Assembly: GCF_001634285.1 (NCBI RefSeq)
Contig: NZ_CP015438.1
Coordinates: forward strand, 2,368,001 to 2,432,000
Direction of reading: 5' to 3'
Source: Anoxybacillus amylolyticus
GTDB taxonomy: Bacteria > Bacillota > Bacilli > Bacillales > Anoxybacillaceae
Length of the DNA stretch: 64,000 bases
Part shown: positions 15,554-22,711 of the stretch, one piece after another
How the letters are laid out: every line of letters begins with the position of its first letter
How positions within the stretch are numbered: position 1 is the first letter of the stretch
Translations under genes and position numbers: made by a program
The notes under the pieces: model-generated
What the model was told of the DNA's origin: nothing
The model's database searches: none
What the model saw: only the letters and a program-made list of their open reading frames with translations

Positions 15554-16143
15554 TGCTTCCCACCTCGCGTCCGTTTCCAGTAATAATACCGGTCAATAAA
15601 AATCGCACCAATCGTCGCTAATAAGGAAGCGATAAACGTCGTACCAATAATTTCCCCTGGCGACGCCGAACCGTAGGTCATGCGAATCGAAATGACGGTT
15701 GCAGGAATAAGGGTAATTCCTGACGTATTCATCGCTAAAAACGTAACCATCGACCGGCTTGCTGTCTCGCGATTTCTGTTTAGCTTTTTCAATTCTTCCA
15801 TCGCTTTAATGCCAAGCGGGGTAGCCGCATTGCCAAGCCCGAACATATTCGCAATCATATTCGAAACGATGTAACCGAGCGCCGGATGATCTTTCGGCAC
15901 TTCCGGAAACAGCCGGCGCACAAGTGGGGTAAACAAACGAGCAAGCTTCGCAAGCAATCCTGCATCTTCGGCAATTTTCATCAATCCGAGCCAAAACACT
16001 AAAATGCTAATCATCCCAATGCTAATCGTCACCGCTTCTTTGGCACTTTTAAAAATCGCTTCATTTACTTCTTCCATCGTGCCGTTTATCGCCGCAAAAA
16101 CAATACCGATAAGCGCCATGACTGCCCAAATCAAATTAACCAT
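15550..16143 (-). CDS. spmA: spore maturation protein A
   Basis: About 197 residues, hydrophobic, with the SpmA signatures FGLGNAATPLGIKAMEE and TFLAMNTSGITLIPATVISIR (split here by eye) in the second half. The ATG at 16143 is taken because family members begin MVN-IW; AGGTG nine bases upstream serves it. Four codons upstream is a GTG that is less likely. The start lies inside the 3' end of dacB (8-base overlap). Confidence 0.93.
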   Translation of the reverse strand: MVNLIWAVMALIGIVFAAINGTMEEVNEAIFKSAKEAVTISIGMISILVFWLGLMKIAEDAGLLAKLARLFTPLVRRLFPEVPKDHPALGYIVSNMIANMFGLGNAATPLGIKAMEELKKLNRNRETASRSMVTFLAMNTSGITLIPATVISIRMTYGSASPGEIIGTTFIASLLATIGAIFIDRYYYWKRTRGGKQ

Positions 16144-17275
16144 CGTGCCCAACACCTAAAAAGAACACAAGTTTCCAAATGGAAGCGTTCGTTTGTTTGC
16201 TCTGGCTCTGCTTATACAAAAGTGGTACTTCATCGACCGGTTGTCCATCTAAATATAGCACTGCTTTTCCAACAACGATCGGAATAAGCGCTCGCTCTTC
16301 TTTCCATTGTTTTTTTGGACGAAGAAGATGAATACGCACACGCAATTTTTCCATTTCGTCTTTTTTGACTGGATATACTAAATCGCGAGATGCTTGCAGA
16401 TGGTTTCGATAAAACTTGTCGTTTACACGTTTCCCGATTCGCTCTTTACTTACTTTCGCAAGCACATAATGGTCAAATCCGTATTCGTACATGGAAATAT
16501 GGTCGTTCCAATCATCAGGGGCGTTGAGTGTCACAGCGATTAATTCTAGACCGTCTTTTTCTGCACTCGTCACAAGCGTCCGTTTGGCCCGTTTCGTATA
16601 GCCTGTTTTTCCGCCTGTACAATATTCGTACAAGTTCGTTAACAATTTGTTTTTATTGCGCCAGATCCGATCCCAATTTTCATCCGGATTCGGAGCACGA
16701 TATACTTTCGTACCGGAAATTTTTCGAAACGTTTTGTTATGCATCGCATAGCGCATTAATAGCGCCATATCATAAGCGGTCGAATAATGATTTTCCGCAT
16801 CGTCAAGCCCGTGTGGATTGGCAAAATGCGTGTCGCGCATCCCGATTTCGGCTGCTTTTTGGTTCATTAAAAACACAAAGCCTTCCATACTGCCGCCGAC
16901 ATGTTCCGCAATCGCCACAGCAGCATCGTTCCCTGAACGGAGCATAAGCCCATAGACGAGGTCGCGTAATTTAATTTTTTCCCCTTCTTTCAAATATATG
17001 GAAGAACCTTCCGCTCGTACCGCGCGGGCGCTTACCGTCACTGTTTCATCTAGTTTCCCTGACTCAATCGCCAAAATGGCCGTCATAATTTTTGTAATGC
17101 TGGCAATGCGTCGCTTCGTATGGGCGTCTTTTTCAAACAATACTCGCCCTGACGTCTGTTCCATTAAAATCGCGCTTTGCGCGCTGACGTCTTGCGCTTT
17201 GGTCCGCTGCGGAATGCATGAAAAAATCATTGCCAGCATCACAATGCAAGCAAGCAACCGTTTCCTTTGCCGCAT
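16136..17275 (-). CDS. dacB: sporulation D-alanyl-D-alanine carboxypeptidase DacB (PBP5*)
   Basis: A 379-residue secreted penicillin-binding protein. A signal peptide (about residues 1-27) precedes the peptidase S11 domain with catalytic SITK near residue 60, SGND near 113 and the KTG box GGKTGYT near 218. It trims cortex peptide side chains in the developing spore. Being first in front of spmA and spmB fits the B. subtilis operon. The ATG has GGGATGGGG upstream. Confidence 0.94.
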   Translation of the reverse strand: MRQRKRLLACIVMLAMIFSCIPQRTKAQDVSAQSAILMEQTSGRVLFEKDAHTKRRIASITKIMTAILAIESGKLDETVTVSARAVRAEGSSIYLKEGEKIKLRDLVYGLMLRSGNDAAVAIAEHVGGSMEGFVFLMNQKAAEIGMRDTHFANPHGLDDAENHYSTAYDMALLMRYAMHNKTFRKISGTKVYRAPNPDENWDRIWRNKNKLLTNLYEYCTGGKTGYTKRAKRTLVTSAEKDGLELIAVTLNAPDDWNDHISMYEYGFDHYVLAKVSKERIGKRVNDKFYRNHLQASRDLVYPVKKDEMEKLRVRIHLLRPKKQWKEERALIPIVVGKAVLYLDGQPVDEVPLLYKQSQSKQTNASIWKLVFFLGVGHDG

Positions 17276-17374: not shown

Positions 17375-18259
17375 TTAAAATGGTTGCCATCGAAGACGCC
17401 GCGCCTGCTCAAATCGTTGCTCAACATCACGCCAGTTGACAACGTTCCAAAAGCTGTTAATGTAAGCAGCACGGTCGTTTTTATATTGCAAATAATACGC
17501 ATGTTCCCACACATCAAGAACAAGCAGCGGAATCGTATCCCATTGCGTCATTAGTTGATGTTTTTCTGTCTGCAAAATTTCTAACCGATGGGCACGTGGC
17601 GACCAGACAAGAATGGCCCATCCGACTCCTTCTACTTTTTTCGCTGCTTCGGTAAAATGGTTTTTAAAACGGGCAACGCTGCCGAAATTTGTTTTGATTT
17701 GTTCAAGCAATGCCCCTTTTGGCTCGCCACCGCCTTTTGGCGTCATGTTATACCAAAAAATTGTATGCAAATAATGACCAGAGCCGTGAAATGCCGCTTC
17801 GCGCTCCCAATGGATGAGCAGTTCGTAATCGTTCGTTTCACGCGCCGTTTCCATCATTTTTTCCGCCTTATTCAATCCGTCGACATAACTTTGATGGTGC
17901 TTCGTATGATGGAGGTACATAATTTCCCCAGAGATATGCGGTTCTAACGCATCATAACGGTACGGTAGCGGTGGCAGCGTATGTGTGCCAGCAGTGCGTT
18001 CAAGCCCTTGTTCCATTTCACTTCTTTCGTCAGTTGCTCGTTCTTCTACGAGCGAAATACGTTGCACTGTTTTTTCATAAAGCGATGCAACGATCGCTTC
18101 CACCTCTTTCACCGCTTCTTCCGTCCATCCCCCTTCGTGTGAAGAAAGATACGTGAGCAGCTCCTCCACCTCCCCGCGCATGTCGCTTCGTTCTGCTAAC
18201 TGACTCATCCATTCCATGACTTCATGCACATATTGCTCAAACAGTTCCTGCTGTTCCAT
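17375..18259 (-). CDS. sodF: superoxide dismutase [Fe/Mn] with N-terminal extension (SodF-like)
   Basis: About 294 residues. Residues from about 95 on form a complete Fe/Mn superoxide dismutase: LPPLPYRYDALEPHI opening, metal ligands in MYLHHTKHH, AAFHGSGHYLH, and DVWEHAYY. The first 90 residues are an acidic, probably helical extension not found in ordinary SodA and reminiscent of B. subtilis SodF. No secretion signal is evident, so it is probably cytoplasmic. The ATG at 18259 has GGAGGAG nine bases upstream; nearby GTG and TTG are worse. It lies between the dacB operon and a regulator gene, a place where B. subtilis has no sod gene. Confidence 0.9.
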   Translation of the reverse strand: MEQQELFEQYVHEVMEWMSQLAERSDMRGEVEELLTYLSSHEGGWTEEAVKEVEAIVASLYEKTVQRISLVEERATDERSEMEQGLERTAGTHTLPPLPYRYDALEPHISGEIMYLHHTKHHQSYVDGLNKAEKMMETARETNDYELLIHWEREAAFHGSGHYLHTIFWYNMTPKGGGEPKGALLEQIKTNFGSVARFKNHFTEAAKKVEGVGWAILVWSPRAHRLEILQTEKHQLMTQWDTIPLLVLDVWEHAYYLQYKNDRAAYINSFWNVVNWRDVEQRFEQARRLRWQPF

Positions 18260-18336
18260 CACCAATCTCCTCCTTCTTTATCCGCCATTATCGTATGAAG
18301 GATAGGAGAAAATCGTTCTTGTCCTTATGAAACGAT

Positions 18337-19842
18337 TTATTGAATAATACCAAGACGTATCGCTTTCGCAACCAATTCGGTACGGTTTTTCGCATTCAAT
18401 TTCTTCATAAGACTAGAAATATAATCTCTTACTGTAAATTCACTCAAATATAGTTGCGAAGCAGCTTCAGCAGTCGACGCGCCATCGGCAAGTAGCTTCA
18501 TGATTTCCATTTCCCGTGACGAAAAAGAAACAGCATGTACACCTAAAGATTGCTTTTGAACAGGCGCCTCTATAAACCGCAACAACAATTCCCCCGCGCT
18601 TTGCCCAAATTTCATCAAGGCCGGAAATAAGCTGCGATCAACTGCAAAATGTTTACCAGCTCCTTGATCTAATACAATCCCCCCTATAATTTTTCCCTCA
18701 GTTGGCACATAGACAGGGACAATAACAAGAGACGCAATCCCAAATTTTTTTGTGTAATTTTCCGGAAATTCCTTATTCGCAAACGGAACATAAATGGGCT
18801 GAAAATGTTTCATATCATGATGTTGCGATTTCAACTTCCCGATGCTTTCGTTTACAATCGGAATATTTGCAATTTCATCGGTAATCGCTTGAATTTCTTC
18901 ATTGTTTAGTCGATACCCATATAAACCAACAATTTTACTTTCCATATCGGAAAGTTGGAAAAGGGCGCAACGCTCAAATGGTAAAAAATATCCAAATCCA
19001 AAACAAATATTTTCCATCGCTTCTTGAAAATTTTGTGAACGAATAATCCATTCGTTAAATAAAATAACTGCATCTTTCCAACGATTTTCTTTCCATCGAC
19101 GAAACGTTTTCTCTTCTTCTTCTTGAAACGCACGGAATAAATGAACACTAACGGTCAACCGCTCCGCGACTTGCTTATCTTCTGTCCCAAACAAAAGCAA
19201 TTCGTTTTTCCACGGAACAGGAAGATGAGAACTCCCTAATACACTCACAATTTCATCCCAAGAACAAAACACAGCATTTTCACCGGAAATATTTTTATAC
19301 GGATGAACGCCAATAATTTTTTTTATAGAAAACCCTTCTTTTGTTTCTTCGATTCTCGCAATCCATTGGGTTGGTAGGTTAGGGTTACTTAATAGCCGCT
19401 CACACACATCGTCTATTTGTATTTCTTGACGATACAAATAAAGCATCGACTCACTTATTTTTGAAAACAAATAGTGCACGGAAGGATGTAGTTTAGAGGA
19501 ATAGGCAATTCGCTTCTTCAAAACTTTATGAGCTGCATTTTCTAATAAGTTTAGATGAAAAATAACTAACTCTGGCTCCGGACATCGTTGGAACATTTCC
19601 ATCCACTCTGTTTGAATGGCTTGAATCACGTCATCGACATTCACACTCCCTATCTTGGAAAAAGTGAAGTGGCGCAATAAGCATTTTTTCACAAGCGCAA
19701 ATACATGTACCGGTTTTTCGTTTTGTTGGAGGAAATACAAAATGTGCTGCCATTCTTGCGAAAGATCTTCTTTATAAATGCTTAACAAATGAATGGCATT
19801 GTTTAAAAGATGGTTTAAATGTTCATGAAGTGTCCGAGACAC
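18337..19842 (-). CDS. LuxR-type transcriptional regulator with central GAF-like domain
   Basis: A 501-residue protein starting at a GTG with AGGGGGG upstream. The last 65 residues are a LuxR/GerE helix-turn-helix: SSREMEIMKLLADG, then STAEAASQLYLSEFTVRDY and NAKNRTELVAKAIRLGI. Residues about 265-415 look like a GAF sensor domain (ENICFGFGYFLPFERCALFQLS onwards, ending in FGQSAGELLLRF). The N-terminal half is not recognised. There is no membrane span and no receiver domain, so the input is probably a small molecule or partner protein. It diverges from the DUF6230-like operon across a 537-base gap rich in inverted repeats, which suggests it controls that operon. Ligand unknown. Confidence 0.8.
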   Translation of the reverse strand: MSRTLHEHLNHLLNNAIHLLSIYKEDLSQEWQHILYFLQQNEKPVHVFALVKKCLLRHFTFSKIGSVNVDDVIQAIQTEWMEMFQRCPEPELVIFHLNLLENAAHKVLKKRIAYSSKLHPSVHYLFSKISESMLYLYRQEIQIDDVCERLLSNPNLPTQWIARIEETKEGFSIKKIIGVHPYKNISGENAVFCSWDEIVSVLGSSHLPVPWKNELLLFGTEDKQVAERLTVSVHLFRAFQEEEEKTFRRWKENRWKDAVILFNEWIIRSQNFQEAMENICFGFGYFLPFERCALFQLSDMESKIVGLYGYRLNNEEIQAITDEIANIPIVNESIGKLKSQHHDMKHFQPIYVPFANKEFPENYTKKFGIASLVIVPVYVPTEGKIIGGIVLDQGAGKHFAVDRSLFPALMKFGQSAGELLLRFIEAPVQKQSLGVHAVSFSSREMEIMKLLADGASTAEAASQLYLSEFTVRDYISSLMKKLNAKNRTELVAKAIRLGIIQ

Positions 19843-19964
19843 CTTATCCCCCCTAAATTAAAATAAACGCCTGCTTTACTATTCACCGTACATCGTCCTA
19901 TCCCTTCTTTATGAAAAAAATATAGAATCCTATGGCTGAACACAAGATTTTCTGCCTTTTCCCT

Positions 19965-20100
19965 CGAACAAGAACGCCGGCGGGCAAATGACATTTGCCC
20001 TTCAAGCGTTCATTGTTGGAGGAGGGCATGCTAATACTCCCAGTCGGCAAAGTGCCGACAACAACAGAAAAGCTATAGAGCGATGTCAACTGGCTTTTAT
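19965..20100. other. unexplained structured segment with nested hairpins
   Basis: Three strong pairings nest here: GAACGC (19972-19977) with GCGTTC (20006-20011), enclosing the near-perfect palindrome at 19982-20000 (nine-base arms, one-base centre), and GTCGGCA (20043-20049) with TGCCGAC (20053-20059). TTGTTG (20013-20018) can also pair with CAACAA (20059-20064). It may be a leader of the regulator on the minus strand or a small RNA. It matches none of the riboswitch consensus patterns I know. A short minus-strand reading frame across it lacks a ribosome binding site. Confidence 0.5.
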
Positions 20101-20144
20101 TCGTTAATCAATACGCCTGATAAATGCACATTGAAATGTTACCA

Positions 20145-20182
20145 TTTTTCGACTGTCACGCGTCCGCGTGACAGTCGAAAAA
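20145..20182. repeat. perfect 18-base inverted repeat in divergent intergenic region
   Basis: TTTTTCGACTGTCACGCG (20145-20162) and its exact complement (20165-20182) are separated by two bases. The flanks are A/T, so it looks like a bidirectional terminator, yet no gene ends here: the neighbours diverge. It could end a small RNA, be a regulator binding site, or be a cruciform. Confidence 0.75.
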
Positions 20183-20309
20183 ATACGTTAAACTCCTCAG
20201 TTACATGTATATAGTTCGACTCATTTCTACAAGCTCCTTCCTTATTTTAATGAAAATCCTACAAATGTAGGGATTAACTTTTATAGGTAGATAGCATAAA
20301 ATTTTCAAC

Positions 20310-20355
20310 AAAATAAAGAAAACGTCCACTTTTCCGTAAGCGTTTTCTTTATTTT
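20310..20355 (+). promoter_or_regulatory. 15-base inverted repeat in the leader of the DUF6230-like gene (possible attenuator)
   Basis: AAAATAAAGAAAACG (20310-20324) pairs perfectly with 20341-20355 around a 16-base loop. The 3' arm is T-rich, so on the plus strand it could act as a terminator 15 bases before the ribosome binding site of the next gene, either as an attenuator or as the end of an upstream transcript. Confidence 0.5.
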
Positions 20356-20379
20356 GAATGTTACACAAAGGGGGAGTAA

Positions 20380-20964
20380 ATGGTGGCAGAAACAGTGATT
20401 GTCGGAGGGTATACGGTTAAAAGGAGGTTGTGGTTTGCACTGTTAGGCGGTTTTTTATTTTTAGGCATCCTTCTTTCGTTATTCGGGATGACAGGAATGG
20501 CCTATGCTGTTCCGCTGAGCGGGTTTGGAGAGTTTACCGTAAAATTTGACAAAATGGTCGGTACAGGCTTTAAGCTATACGGCGGAGCTGCAGATGGGGC
20601 AGAAACGAAAAACATCCCTGTTACTGTTAACGAAATTAATCATGCGACCATTACTGGATTAGAAATCTCCAAAACGATTCCTGCGCTTGGGATTCGGGTC
20701 GTGATTTCTTCTGATAAACCGGTCGAAATTGACGGCTTAATTCAAAAAGCAACGCTCATTAACGGTAGCGCACAATTCGGCAATTTAACGATGTCGGAAA
20801 ATTATGTTGGTGACATTCAAGATCCAGTCCAAAAAATCGTTCGGGAATTTACACAAAGTGCAGATAGCATTGTGATCGAAAATGGCGATTTAAAAACGCT
20901 CTACCTTTTCCAAAAAACTGTTTCCCTTCCAGGAATGAAAGTATCGTTTGAAAAACTAAATTAA
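20380..20964 (+). CDS. DUF6230-like membrane-anchored or secreted protein
   Basis: A 194-residue protein with one N-terminal hydrophobic helix (about residues 18-44) and a roughly 145-residue extracytoplasmic domain predicted to be beta-rich (GFGEFTVKFDKM, then ITGLEISKTI, and INGSAQFGNLTM). The pattern is that of the DUF6230 family, known mainly from Actinobacteria, where it travels with DUF6114; this comes from memory of the family, not a search. The start ATG follows AGGGGGAG closely; a GTG one codon later is equally possible. First gene of a probable operon with the next gene, 22 bases away. Confidence 0.7.
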   Translation: MVAETVIVGGYTVKRRLWFALLGGFLFLGILLSLFGMTGMAYAVPLSGFGEFTVKFDKMVGTGFKLYGGAADGAETKNIPVTVNEINHATITGLEISKTIPALGIRVVISSDKPVEIDGLIQKATLINGSAQFGNLTMSENYVGDIQDPVQKIVREFTQSADSIVIENGDLKTLYLFQKTVSLPGMKVSFEKLN

Positions 20965-20986
20965 ATTTTTGCGAGGATGATTAGAA

Positions 20987-21424
20987 ATGAACATGTTTTT
21001 TTCCAAACGAGAAGCGTTTAAAGAATGGAAAGCAAGACGCCCTTTTTGGGGAGCGACATTAACGATTTTGTCTGGTTTGGTTATATTATGGATTCCTATC
21101 CAGCTTTATGAAGTAGCCATCGTCCCAGGCAGCATTTTGTTTTCAGGGTTCTTTTTAGGTGGGCTTGTGTTCCTTTTAGGGGTTATGTCTTATGCCATGC
21201 CCAAATTATCAACTGTATTCGGGATTATCACTATTTTCTCTGCTGTTTTGTCGATCATGGGAGCGCTCGGTGGCTTTTTAGTGGGAACAATTTTAGGCAT
21301 TATCGGCGGAGCGTTATGTATTGCGTGGAAACCCGAGTTAGCAGTGGTAGAAACAAGCCACCTCGATCTGAACAACGACCATTCAGTAGAAAACGAGATT
21401 GCATCTGGAATTATGGAGTCTTGA
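20987..21424 (+). CDS. DUF6114-like four-helix membrane protein
   Basis: A 145-residue protein with a short charged N-terminus (FKEWKARRPFWGA) and four hydrophobic helices (about residues 21-42, 47-69, 73-90, 92-113), then an acidic cytoplasmic-looking tail. Topology and the RPFWGA opening resemble DUF6114 proteins. It sits 22 bases after the DUF6230-like gene with a GCGAGGATG-type site. Co-occurrence of both families suggests they form one membrane complex; the function is unknown. Confidence 0.7.
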   Translation: MNMFFSKREAFKEWKARRPFWGATLTILSGLVILWIPIQLYEVAIVPGSILFSGFFLGGLVFLLGVMSYAMPKLSTVFGIITIFSAVLSIMGALGGFLVGTILGIIGGALCIAWKPELAVVETSHLDLNNDHSVENEIASGIMES

Positions 21425-21478
21425 GCTGGGTATTTCCTTCTCGTTATGGAAAACGATTATTTTCATAGTCCATTTGCT

Positions 21479-21518
21479 AAGAGCCAACTCCCTTGAAAAT
21501 AGGGGAGGCTCTTTTTTT
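21479..21518 (+). terminator. intrinsic terminator after the DUF6114-like gene
   Basis: AGAGCC plus CTCCC pair with GGGGAG plus GCTCT around a loop, followed by a run of seven T. It separates the first two genes from the third exported protein. Confidence 0.85.
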
Positions 21519-21556
21519 AAAAGACAAGCCTATCACAGATAGAAAAGGTGGTTGCA

Positions 21557-22195
21557 TTGATTAATAGGCGCTTTATCGTTATCATTTTTCTTATTTTTAC
21601 TAGCGGGGTTTTATTTGTTCGACAAGGGAGTGCTACTACTCCTACGGTTGTCGGTTTTGTCATCGAAGCAACTCAGCTAGAAGGGACGCTGAAATCTGTT
21701 TCGCTTGGGACAGGCGATACGGCGGAACAACCAAACACTCCAATACTGTCACTTTCGCTCGAACAGATAGTGGCAAATGGACTCACGATTCGTAAAATTG
21801 TTCGTACTCCATCTGGAAATATAACCGTCCGTATGACTTCGTCCGACGTTGCTACCTTTCGACAACTAACGGTACAACTATCTAACGCACAATTTAGTGA
21901 AGTATATCAACCAACGGATGGAAAGATTGGGTTTAAGCAATTAAAAATGCTCGCTCACCGCATCGTTTCTGATGATGTCAAACTGCCGCAACTGCTTATC
22001 ACCCTAGAAAGTGGAGGAGAGGCAGAAATAACTCCCGCCAATGAGGAAGCGTTAGCACAAATGAAAAAAACCCTCGAAACGCTTATAAATAACACGTCGC
22101 AAGTAAGTGAGCCAACCCAAACAGAACACCAGCCGTCTACCGCTGGACAACCAAATGACCAACCAACAGGCGAAAAAGCGGATGCGACAAACTAA
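21557..22195 (+). CDS. secreted protein distantly resembling the DUF6230-like protein
   Basis: About 212 residues beginning at a TTG five bases after AAGGTGG; a GTG inside that site is possible but unlikely. A signal peptide or anchor (residues 1-27) precedes a domain in which SLEQIVANGLTIRKI, then NITVRMTSSDV and LTVQLSNAQFSEV run parallel to ITGLEISKTI, GIRVVISSDKPV and ATLINGSAQFGNL of the protein encoded at 20380. I read it as a diverged relative. The last 35 residues are Thr/Gln/Pro-rich and probably disordered. It comes after a terminator, so it needs its own promoter or readthrough. Confidence 0.65.
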   Translation: MINRRFIVIIFLIFTSGVLFVRQGSATTPTVVGFVIEATQLEGTLKSVSLGTGDTAEQPNTPILSLSLEQIVANGLTIRKIVRTPSGNITVRMTSSDVATFRQLTVQLSNAQFSEVYQPTDGKIGFKQLKMLAHRIVSDDVKLPQLLITLESGGEAEITPANEEALAQMKKTLETLINNTSQVSEPTQTEHQPSTAGQPNDQPTGEKADATN

Positions 22196-22219: not shown

Positions 22220-22711
22220 TTACTTCGACTGCATCATTTTTGTCCGGTAGTCTGTTTCATAAAATTCGAGTTCTTCACGCATCGCTTGGAAGCTTCTTTC
22301 TAGTGAGGAAAGAAGCGCTTTGAGCGATGGCGGCGGCGTTTGCCGGAATTTAATTGAATTTCGCCCTGTATAGGCAGAACGGCTGTCTTCATACCAAGCA
22401 TCGTTTTTCGGCGCAAAAAATTCGGCAATACACGAATGATAAATACGGTAGAGCGCTTTTTCAGCAGCCGCTTTGCGGAACGGCTCATCTTTTAAAACAA
22501 CGCGACACGCTTCTAGCCCTTCTTCACAATAAACGACTAAGCGGCGCAAGTTGAGCAATAGCTGCTCATAGTACGCCTTATCCCCATCTTCTTGTTCCGC
22601 AAGCAACCCTGTAAGCGTCGTTTCGTTCAAATAGTTCGTCATCGCTCGAACGGTATGCTGCAAAAACGTCTCGACTTGTTTCGTTTGATTCATGACGATT
22701 GCATTTGCCAT
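22220..22711 (-). CDS. ypuI: YpuI family protein (DUF3907)
   Basis: A 163-residue soluble, mostly helical protein matching B. subtilis YpuI in composition, length and position beside scpB. The conserved central part (DEPFRKAAAEKALYRIYH, then SIKFRQTPP) is intact. Its role is not established. It follows the unknown gene at 22729 by about 17 bases. Confidence 0.8.
   Translation of the reverse strand: MANAIVMNQTKQVETFLQHTVRAMTNYLNETTLTGLLAEQEDGDKAYYEQLLLNLRRLVVYCEEGLEACRVVLKDEPFRKAAAEKALYRIYHSCIAEFFAPKNDAWYEDSRSAYTGRNSIKFRQTPPPSLKALLSSLERSFQAMREELEFYETDYRTKMMQSK

Follow-up and report, generated by a model that had tools for sequence, protein, structure and literature searches.

A conserved DUF6230-DUF6114 cassette with a dedicated regulator, probably an envelope module for long-chain hydrophobic carbon

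The stretch of DNA analysed here, termed the window, comprises 64,000 nucleotides of Anoxybacillus amylolyticus (contig NZ_CP015438.1, positions 2,368,001 to 2,432,000). It carries an envelope cassette of three plus-strand genes, encoding a DUF6230 protein, a DUF6114 protein and a DUF6230-related third protein, that diverges from a LuxR-type regulator. The cassette is probably an inducible module of the envelope that handles long-chain hydrophobic carbon: alkanes, fatty acids or related acyl chains. The reading draws on the families of its proteins, the conservation of the cassette, the homology of its two exported proteins, an operator at fixed spacing from a promoter element, the gene neighbourhoods and a fusion of DUF6114 to an acyl-CoA ligase. 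The initial annotation, made from the sequence alone, had taken the block for an undescribed envelope system of spore formers. That interpretation is partly supported; the theme of long-chain hydrocarbon and fatty-acid oxidation was missed there. All open reading frames were found where it had placed them.

The DUF6230 gene (20380..20964, plus strand) encodes 194 amino acids that match PF19741 (E 7.3e-14, 52.7 bits against a cut-off of 27.5). The DUF6114 gene (20987..21424, plus strand; 145 amino acids) matches PF19609 (E 8.3e-30, 104 bits against a cut-off of 27.9). Both families, as the initial annotation had named them, are listed by Pfam as of unknown function. The third gene (21548..22195, plus strand; 215 amino acids) encodes an exported protein with a DUF6230-related domain and a variable hydrophilic tail. 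It has no Pfam match and hence lies below the PF19741 cut-off. For none of the three proteins did NCBIfam or PHROGs return a useful match. When 70 DUF6230 proteins were aligned with 36 third proteins by hhalign, the profiles matched with probability 98.6 (E 8.8e-16, 163 columns), and 7/36 third-family proteins match PF19741 directly. These matches indicate that the two exported proteins are homologous and that the motif-by-motif parallel seen earlier between them reflects real homology. Because the window's third protein shows this profile relation yet no PF19741 match, it is termed DUF6230-related rather than a member of the family. The tails of third proteins (L121 and other members) have repetitive sequences with weak similarity to apolipophorin, apolipoprotein, phasin or perilipin models.

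Conservation of the cassette was examined at 80 DUF6114 loci in named genomes, the best 80 of 119 relatives found; 15 of the 80 are truncated by contig ends. DUF6230 lies directly upstream of DUF6114 in 80/80 loci. A DUF6230-related third gene follows in 72/80, and two of the eight loci lacking it have less than 1.5 kb of sequence past DUF6114. A divergent regulator relative longer than 300 amino acids is present in 62/80, and all four genes occur together in 57/80. In an even draw of 249 genomes from the order, 31 carry DUF6114 above the cut-off and 30 carry DUF6230, every one among those 31. The regulator (E 1e-30) occurs in 33 of the 249, comprising 30/31 genomes with DUF6114 and 3/218 without; one of these three (G138) has a regulator copy with two in-frame stops. 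This distribution supports the dedicated regulator that the initial annotation had proposed. Profile similarity to both DUF families and co-occurrence of regulator and cassette were the two checks set in advance, and both came out positive.

DUF6114 also scored above the cut-off in 8/398 genomes drawn from the phylum, 12/159 Actinobacteria and 13/145 Halobacteria. DUF6230 adjoins DUF6114 at 15/17 DUF6114 places in Actinobacteria, where the two families had been said to travel together. In Halobacteria, 30 of 35 DUF6114 places were taken, and 20 of these have a DUF6230-like gene no more than 1.5 kb away. A plasmid search with the window DUF6114 had Natronococcus as its sole match. There the order is DUF6230, DUF6114 and an exported protein with a repetitive tail, which may be read as the third protein even with no score from the third-protein profile. 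Four haloarchaeal genomes (L263-L265, L271, L272, L274) have five to seven DUF6114 matches apiece, in tandem or at the ends of long multi-helix membrane proteins.

Two DUF6230 proteins have been described before. P16 and P21 are alkane-inducible proteins of Geobacillus thermoleovorans B23, and the accessible text of Kato et al. (2009; PMC2676291) reports Edman sequencing of their N-termini, location in the membrane fraction and cleavage of a signal peptide. Their mRNA was induced by alkanes, more strongly by longer chains (PMC2676291). At six loci with Geobacillus type II cassettes the DUF6230 protein contains the N-terminal residues of P21, and at three of these its internal peptides as well. 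For P16, the first nine residues recur in DUF6230 proteins of type I cassettes from the same genus. The published P16 and P21 are thus the Geobacillus members of DUF6230. Identity to the window DUF6230 is 63-68% for Geobacillus type I proteins and about 30% for P21-type ones. The mature Geobacillus N-terminus, VPISGVGEF, aligns with residue 44 of the window protein, which is its predicted mature start (cleavage between AYA and VPLSG), so P16/P21 and the cassette protein have family and cleavage site in common. For this reason the cassette is not wholly undescribed, nor is it confined to spore formers, since it occurs in Actinobacteria and Halobacteria. As far as their accessible text goes, the papers on P16/P21 (PMC2676291, PMC10867098) name DUF6230 proteins only and no regulator, operator, DUF6114 or third protein. 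The 2024 paper (PMC10867098) terms P16/P21 membrane transporters, and in the accessible text of both papers the transporter label comes with no transport test. In a literature search that left most subscription papers outside, DUF6230 came up once, incidentally, and DUF6114 not at all; a second search, on the R2lox enzyme GkR2loxI and four locus names of G. kaustophilus, turned up no other work on the cassette proteins.

An AlphaFold2 model of DUF6230 (70 sequences; mean pLDDT 81.5, pTM 0.65) has an N-terminal helix and long beta strands, and hydrophobicity alternates in 5/6 strands checked. Public models of P16/P21 are described as a large beta-barrel with an N-terminal helix (PMC10867098, accessible text). 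Comparison of the DUF6230 profile with PDB chains gave nothing below E 0.3. Foldseek found nothing similar to the model at E 1e-3 or better, an absence that is no proof of a new fold. In a VIA comparison the best Z was 3.0, to acetoacetate-decarboxylase-like beta sheets. The model of DUF6114 (pLDDT 77.2) consists of four membrane-length helices (20-43, 48-70, 72-92 and 98-113), in keeping with the four-helix membrane partner of the initial annotation. For this model, too, Foldseek found nothing similar at E 1e-3 or better, which again does not show a new fold. The top non-significant row for DUF6114 was human p22phox (E 0.16, probability 0.96).

The regulator (18337..19842, minus strand; 501 amino acids) has an N-terminal region, a GAF-like region and a C-terminal LuxR/GerE helix-turn-helix. 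Of its earlier description as a GAF-LuxR protein, the LuxR part was borne out by a GerE match at residues 439-493 (E 2.5e-17). The GAF part is weakly visible: the window protein has no Pfam GAF match, and a relative (L158) matches PF01590 at E 4e-4 with 21.4 bits, 1 bit under the cut-off of 22.4. Intergenic regions between regulator and DUF6230 were compared at 62 loci, the window included; the shuffled controls for the operator, dyad, composite and cre scans preserved base composition only. The palindrome CCTAC-N4-GTAGG occurs in 23/62 regions, and no dyad exceeded four across ten shuffled sets. The longer operator CCTACA-NN-TGTAGG (CCTACANNTGTAGG) is exact in 21/62 regions against 0 in shuffles, and is found within three mismatches in 53/62 against about 5.7. 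In the window this putative regulator binding site, CCTACAAATGTAGG, lies between the divergent genes at 20258..20271 (no strand) and is the sole exact copy.

The operator keeps a fixed distance from a putative -10 box. In 18/21 exact-operator loci the hexamer TAAAAT begins exactly 39 bases past the operator start, as it does in the window (20297..20302, plus strand); the remaining three, all Geobacillus, have TAATAT at offset 38. A scan for the composite of operator and -10 box found 51 elements in the loci studied, 42 of them distinct because two locus sets overlap in part, against 4.7 in shuffles. By this spacing the operator centre lies about 44 bases upstream of the transcription start. 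A position of about -44 is usual for an activator that contacts polymerase. These results suggest that the cassette regulator binds CCTACA-NN-TGTAGG and, from the operator position, that it is probably an activator. A site matching the cre (CcpA) consensus with at most one mismatch was found in 25/62 intergenic regions against 2.4 in shuffles. No cre site is claimed for the window because its best match has three mismatches.

The neighbourhoods of the cassette point to alkane and fatty-acid catabolism. In G. kaustophilus HTA426, P21 (GK2770) adjoins genes for the R2lox enzyme GkR2loxI, an aldehyde dehydrogenase and beta-oxidation enzymes (cluster GK2769-GK2782), and GkR2loxI produced in E. coli degrades alkanes (PMC10867098, accessible text). 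Figure 3b of that paper also assigns a role to GK2769 (PMC10867098). In the order draw, R2lox close to GkR2loxI (E below 1e-90) was found in 9/249 genomes from seven families, and 9/9 carry DUF6114 (Fisher 2e-9 for co-occurrence with the 31/249, phylogeny not corrected). It lies within 10 kb of the cassette in seven of the nine. In G141 it lies within 6 kb of the regulator, with the cassette on another contig, and in G249 (Heyndrickxia coagulans 36D1) it is far from the cassette. R2lox of any clade (E 1e-40) occurs in 18/31 genomes with DUF6114 and 21/218 others. As an internal control, all 13 other-clade R2lox copies in DUF6114 genomes are on another contig or more than 400 kb from the cassette. 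In H. coagulans 36D1 the run SCP2-R2lox-SDR-thiolase-ligase is preceded by a one-mismatch operator with a perfect TATAAT at offset 39, so this R2lox operon is a predicted member of the regulon. The R2lox link here extends beyond the GkR2loxI cluster to other Bacillota families, with the operator in common in one.

Other catabolic genes also adjoin the cassette. In G276 and G190 it borders SCP2, acyl-CoA dehydrogenase, enoyl-CoA hydratase, SDR, thiolase, a further SCP2 and R2lox, and in G276 an acyl-CoA ligase too. A long-chain acyl-CoA ligase is near the cassette at 12/80 named loci, the window not among them. In 57 representative loci, acyl-CoA ligase occurs at 11, R2lox at 6, SCP2 at 6 and thiolase at 4; these counts are descriptive because the loci were chosen by hand. 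In an Actinobacteria group of seven loci a FadB-like enzyme is nearby in six, thiolase in four, and cytochrome P450 in one, the sole locus scanned there. In Nonomuraea an alkyl sulfatase stands beside the DUF6230-DUF6114 pair. A conserved protein of about 150 amino acids with no Pfam match lies beside R2lox, mostly with aldehyde dehydrogenase, at L046 (12749-13207) and nine more loci. A divergent R2lox relative scoring under the NCBIfam cut-off lies about 4 kb from the cassette at L266.

DUF6114 is joined to a catabolic enzyme directly in one family of Bacillota (f59). Three genomes there encode DUF6114 and a long-chain acyl-CoA ligase in one frame of 870-873 amino acids; the family scan was run on one of the three. 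In 4/4 searched genomes of the fusion genus, R2lox and DUF6114 are no more than 10 kb apart.

Within hydrocarbon and fatty-acid handling, uptake is the most likely role of the module. Uptake or surface handling is favoured by the coupling to acyl-CoA ligase, the exported beta domain, the alkane induction and the operator shared with an alkane-oxidation operon. In this scheme the regulator, probably acting as an activator from its site near -44, would switch on DUF6230-DUF6114 and, where present, the third gene. DUF6230 would be exported, lose its signal peptide and stay on the membrane, and the third protein would add a related domain whose tail may reach other envelope material. The exported domains may act at the cell surface, gathering the hydrophobic substrate or shielding it. 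DUF6114, as the membrane-embedded partner, could then help pass it to a cytoplasmic acyl-CoA ligase and, in some species, to the R2lox alkane monooxygenase. Substrate binding by the cassette proteins and the inward direction are what we infer from this arrangement. The window's own copy may serve the same substrates as the alkane-linked cassettes; fatty acids or other compounds may be the substrate in Anoxybacillus, as no marker stands beside this copy and the genome has no R2lox hit. More tentatively, and with the odds somewhat against so specific a form, the three proteins might constitute a long-chain alkane and fatty-acid uptake machine of monoderm bacteria and haloarchaea. Such a machine would combine a surface beta-domain relay, a four-helix gate that can be welded to acyl-CoA ligase and a dedicated regulator that also controls the R2lox operon.

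Several results weigh against the hydrophobic-carbon reading. In the accessible text of Kato et al., palmitate and triglycerides gave no P16/P21 induction and knockouts were not obtained (PMC2676291), and no transport or binding experiment was found in the literature. None of seven marker genes lies within about 8 kb of DUF6114 at 66/80 named loci. Among Actinobacteria 10/16 regions are markerless, including all nine outside the FadB group. No catabolic marker was identified beside the window's cassette, and R2lox was not found in the window genome at E 1e-40. Haloarchaea with DUF6114 (13/145) have no R2lox at E 1e-30; the one Halobacteria hit at this threshold (1/145) is in a genome without DUF6114. 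The operator was not found within two mismatches in the type II loci L046-L053 (P21 type) and L118, and among type II loci only L119 (the same place as L230) carries it. Two genomes (G045, G155) have the regulator and a one-mismatch operator and no cassette. The fused DUF6114-ligase genes have no DUF6230 nearby, and the matches of third-protein tails to apolipoproteins are weak and may be compositional.

The main rival to uptake is a role in tolerance or envelope repair: proteins produced in response to membrane disturbance by hydrophobic compounds would protect or seal the membrane and import no substrate. Kato et al. leave uptake, tolerance or degradation open (PMC2676291, accessible text), and the scarcity of catabolic markers at most named loci suits tolerance. 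So do the regulator and operator of G045 and G155, which stand beside a membrane gene instead of a cassette. In these genomes the regulator adjoins a gene of 995 amino acids, 95% identical between the two, with the operator between the genes. The copy scanned (L225) matches ABC-2 transporters, and the gene is a possible second target of this regulator family. We take it to be YhgE-like (L225 3552-8739, L226 7285-13048). A further point for tolerance comes from the seven-locus Actinobacteria group with FadB-like enzymes (L284-L290). A large divergent protein there has a DUF6230-like domain in 7/7 by profile, and the two of seven that were Pfam-scanned both join it to SLT transglycosylase and M23 peptidase wall-hydrolase domains, which suggests a cell-wall role for the third component. 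Conversely, the DUF6114-ligase fusion and the operator common to the R2lox/thiolase operon point to catabolism over general stress, and the accessible text reports that paraquat, fatty acid and DCPK are no efficient inducers of P21/P16 (PMC2676291). On balance tolerance appears unlikely, at roughly one chance in a handful.

Somewhat less probable still is an envelope system that has nothing to do with hydrocarbons and whose catabolic neighbours were acquired secondarily in some lineages. The markerless loci fit such a role, as does the position of the window cassette between ypuI and dacB and next to sodF. Against it, the catabolic theme recurs in several separate lineages whose gene sets differ, and the induction of P16/P21 by alkanes is experimental (PMC2676291, accessible text). 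An extracellular lipid hydrolase is very improbable. DUF6230 was considered in this light after the resemblance of the P16/P21 N-termini to cholesterol esterase of Streptomyces lavendulae, but Kato et al. describe the full-length similarity as negligible (PMC2676291, accessible text). Among 70 relatives, the region from residue 39 on has no Ser, His or Cys that reaches 80% conservation; of the acidic residues only D57, E140 and E191 do. Without a conserved catalytic Ser or His the esterase reading was rejected.

The proposed module for hydrophobic carbon resembles the FadL-FadD pathway in coupling membrane entry to acyl-CoA ligase, and on the cassette side the two are even fused in one protein. 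FadL and FadD carry out the vectorial acylation of Gram-negative bacteria. The cassette differs in that its hosts lack an outer membrane and in that the DUF6230 profile has no counterpart in the PDB search described above. It differs from the GkR2loxI cluster in that the window copy has no R2lox. To our knowledge, how single-membrane, thick-walled cells acquire water-insoluble hydrocarbons and fatty acids is not settled; the diderm answer, FadL or AlkL, cannot apply to them. If real, the tentative uptake machine would do for single-membrane cells what FadL/AlkL plus FadD do for diderms, with proteins unrelated to those. Two domain families of unknown function gain a testable role, a predicted operator and, with the H. 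coagulans R2lox operon, a predicted further member of the regulon. The natural DUF6114-ligase fusion names a partner enzyme. P16 and P21, reported in 2009 without proven function, gain a cassette, partners and a candidate regulator.

In the window the block is flanked by dacB (Peptidase_S11/DacB, 16136-17275) and ypuI (DUF3907/YpuI, 22220-22711), both confirmed by Pfam, and its order from dacB is sodF, the minus-strand regulator and the three plus-strand envelope genes. The sodF gene (17375..18265, minus strand) encodes an Fe/Mn superoxide dismutase with Pfam Sod_Fe_N and Sod_Fe_C domains. The initial annotation had counted it in the cluster. It was rejected as a component of the system because it is near the cassette at 3/80 named loci, all three Anoxybacillus, and is best regarded as a neighbour. 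The protein has an N-terminal extension of about 90 residues ahead of the dismutase domains. DUF6114 and the third gene are separated by a terminator-like hairpin with a T run (21488-21507), and expression of the third gene may therefore be separate or weaker.

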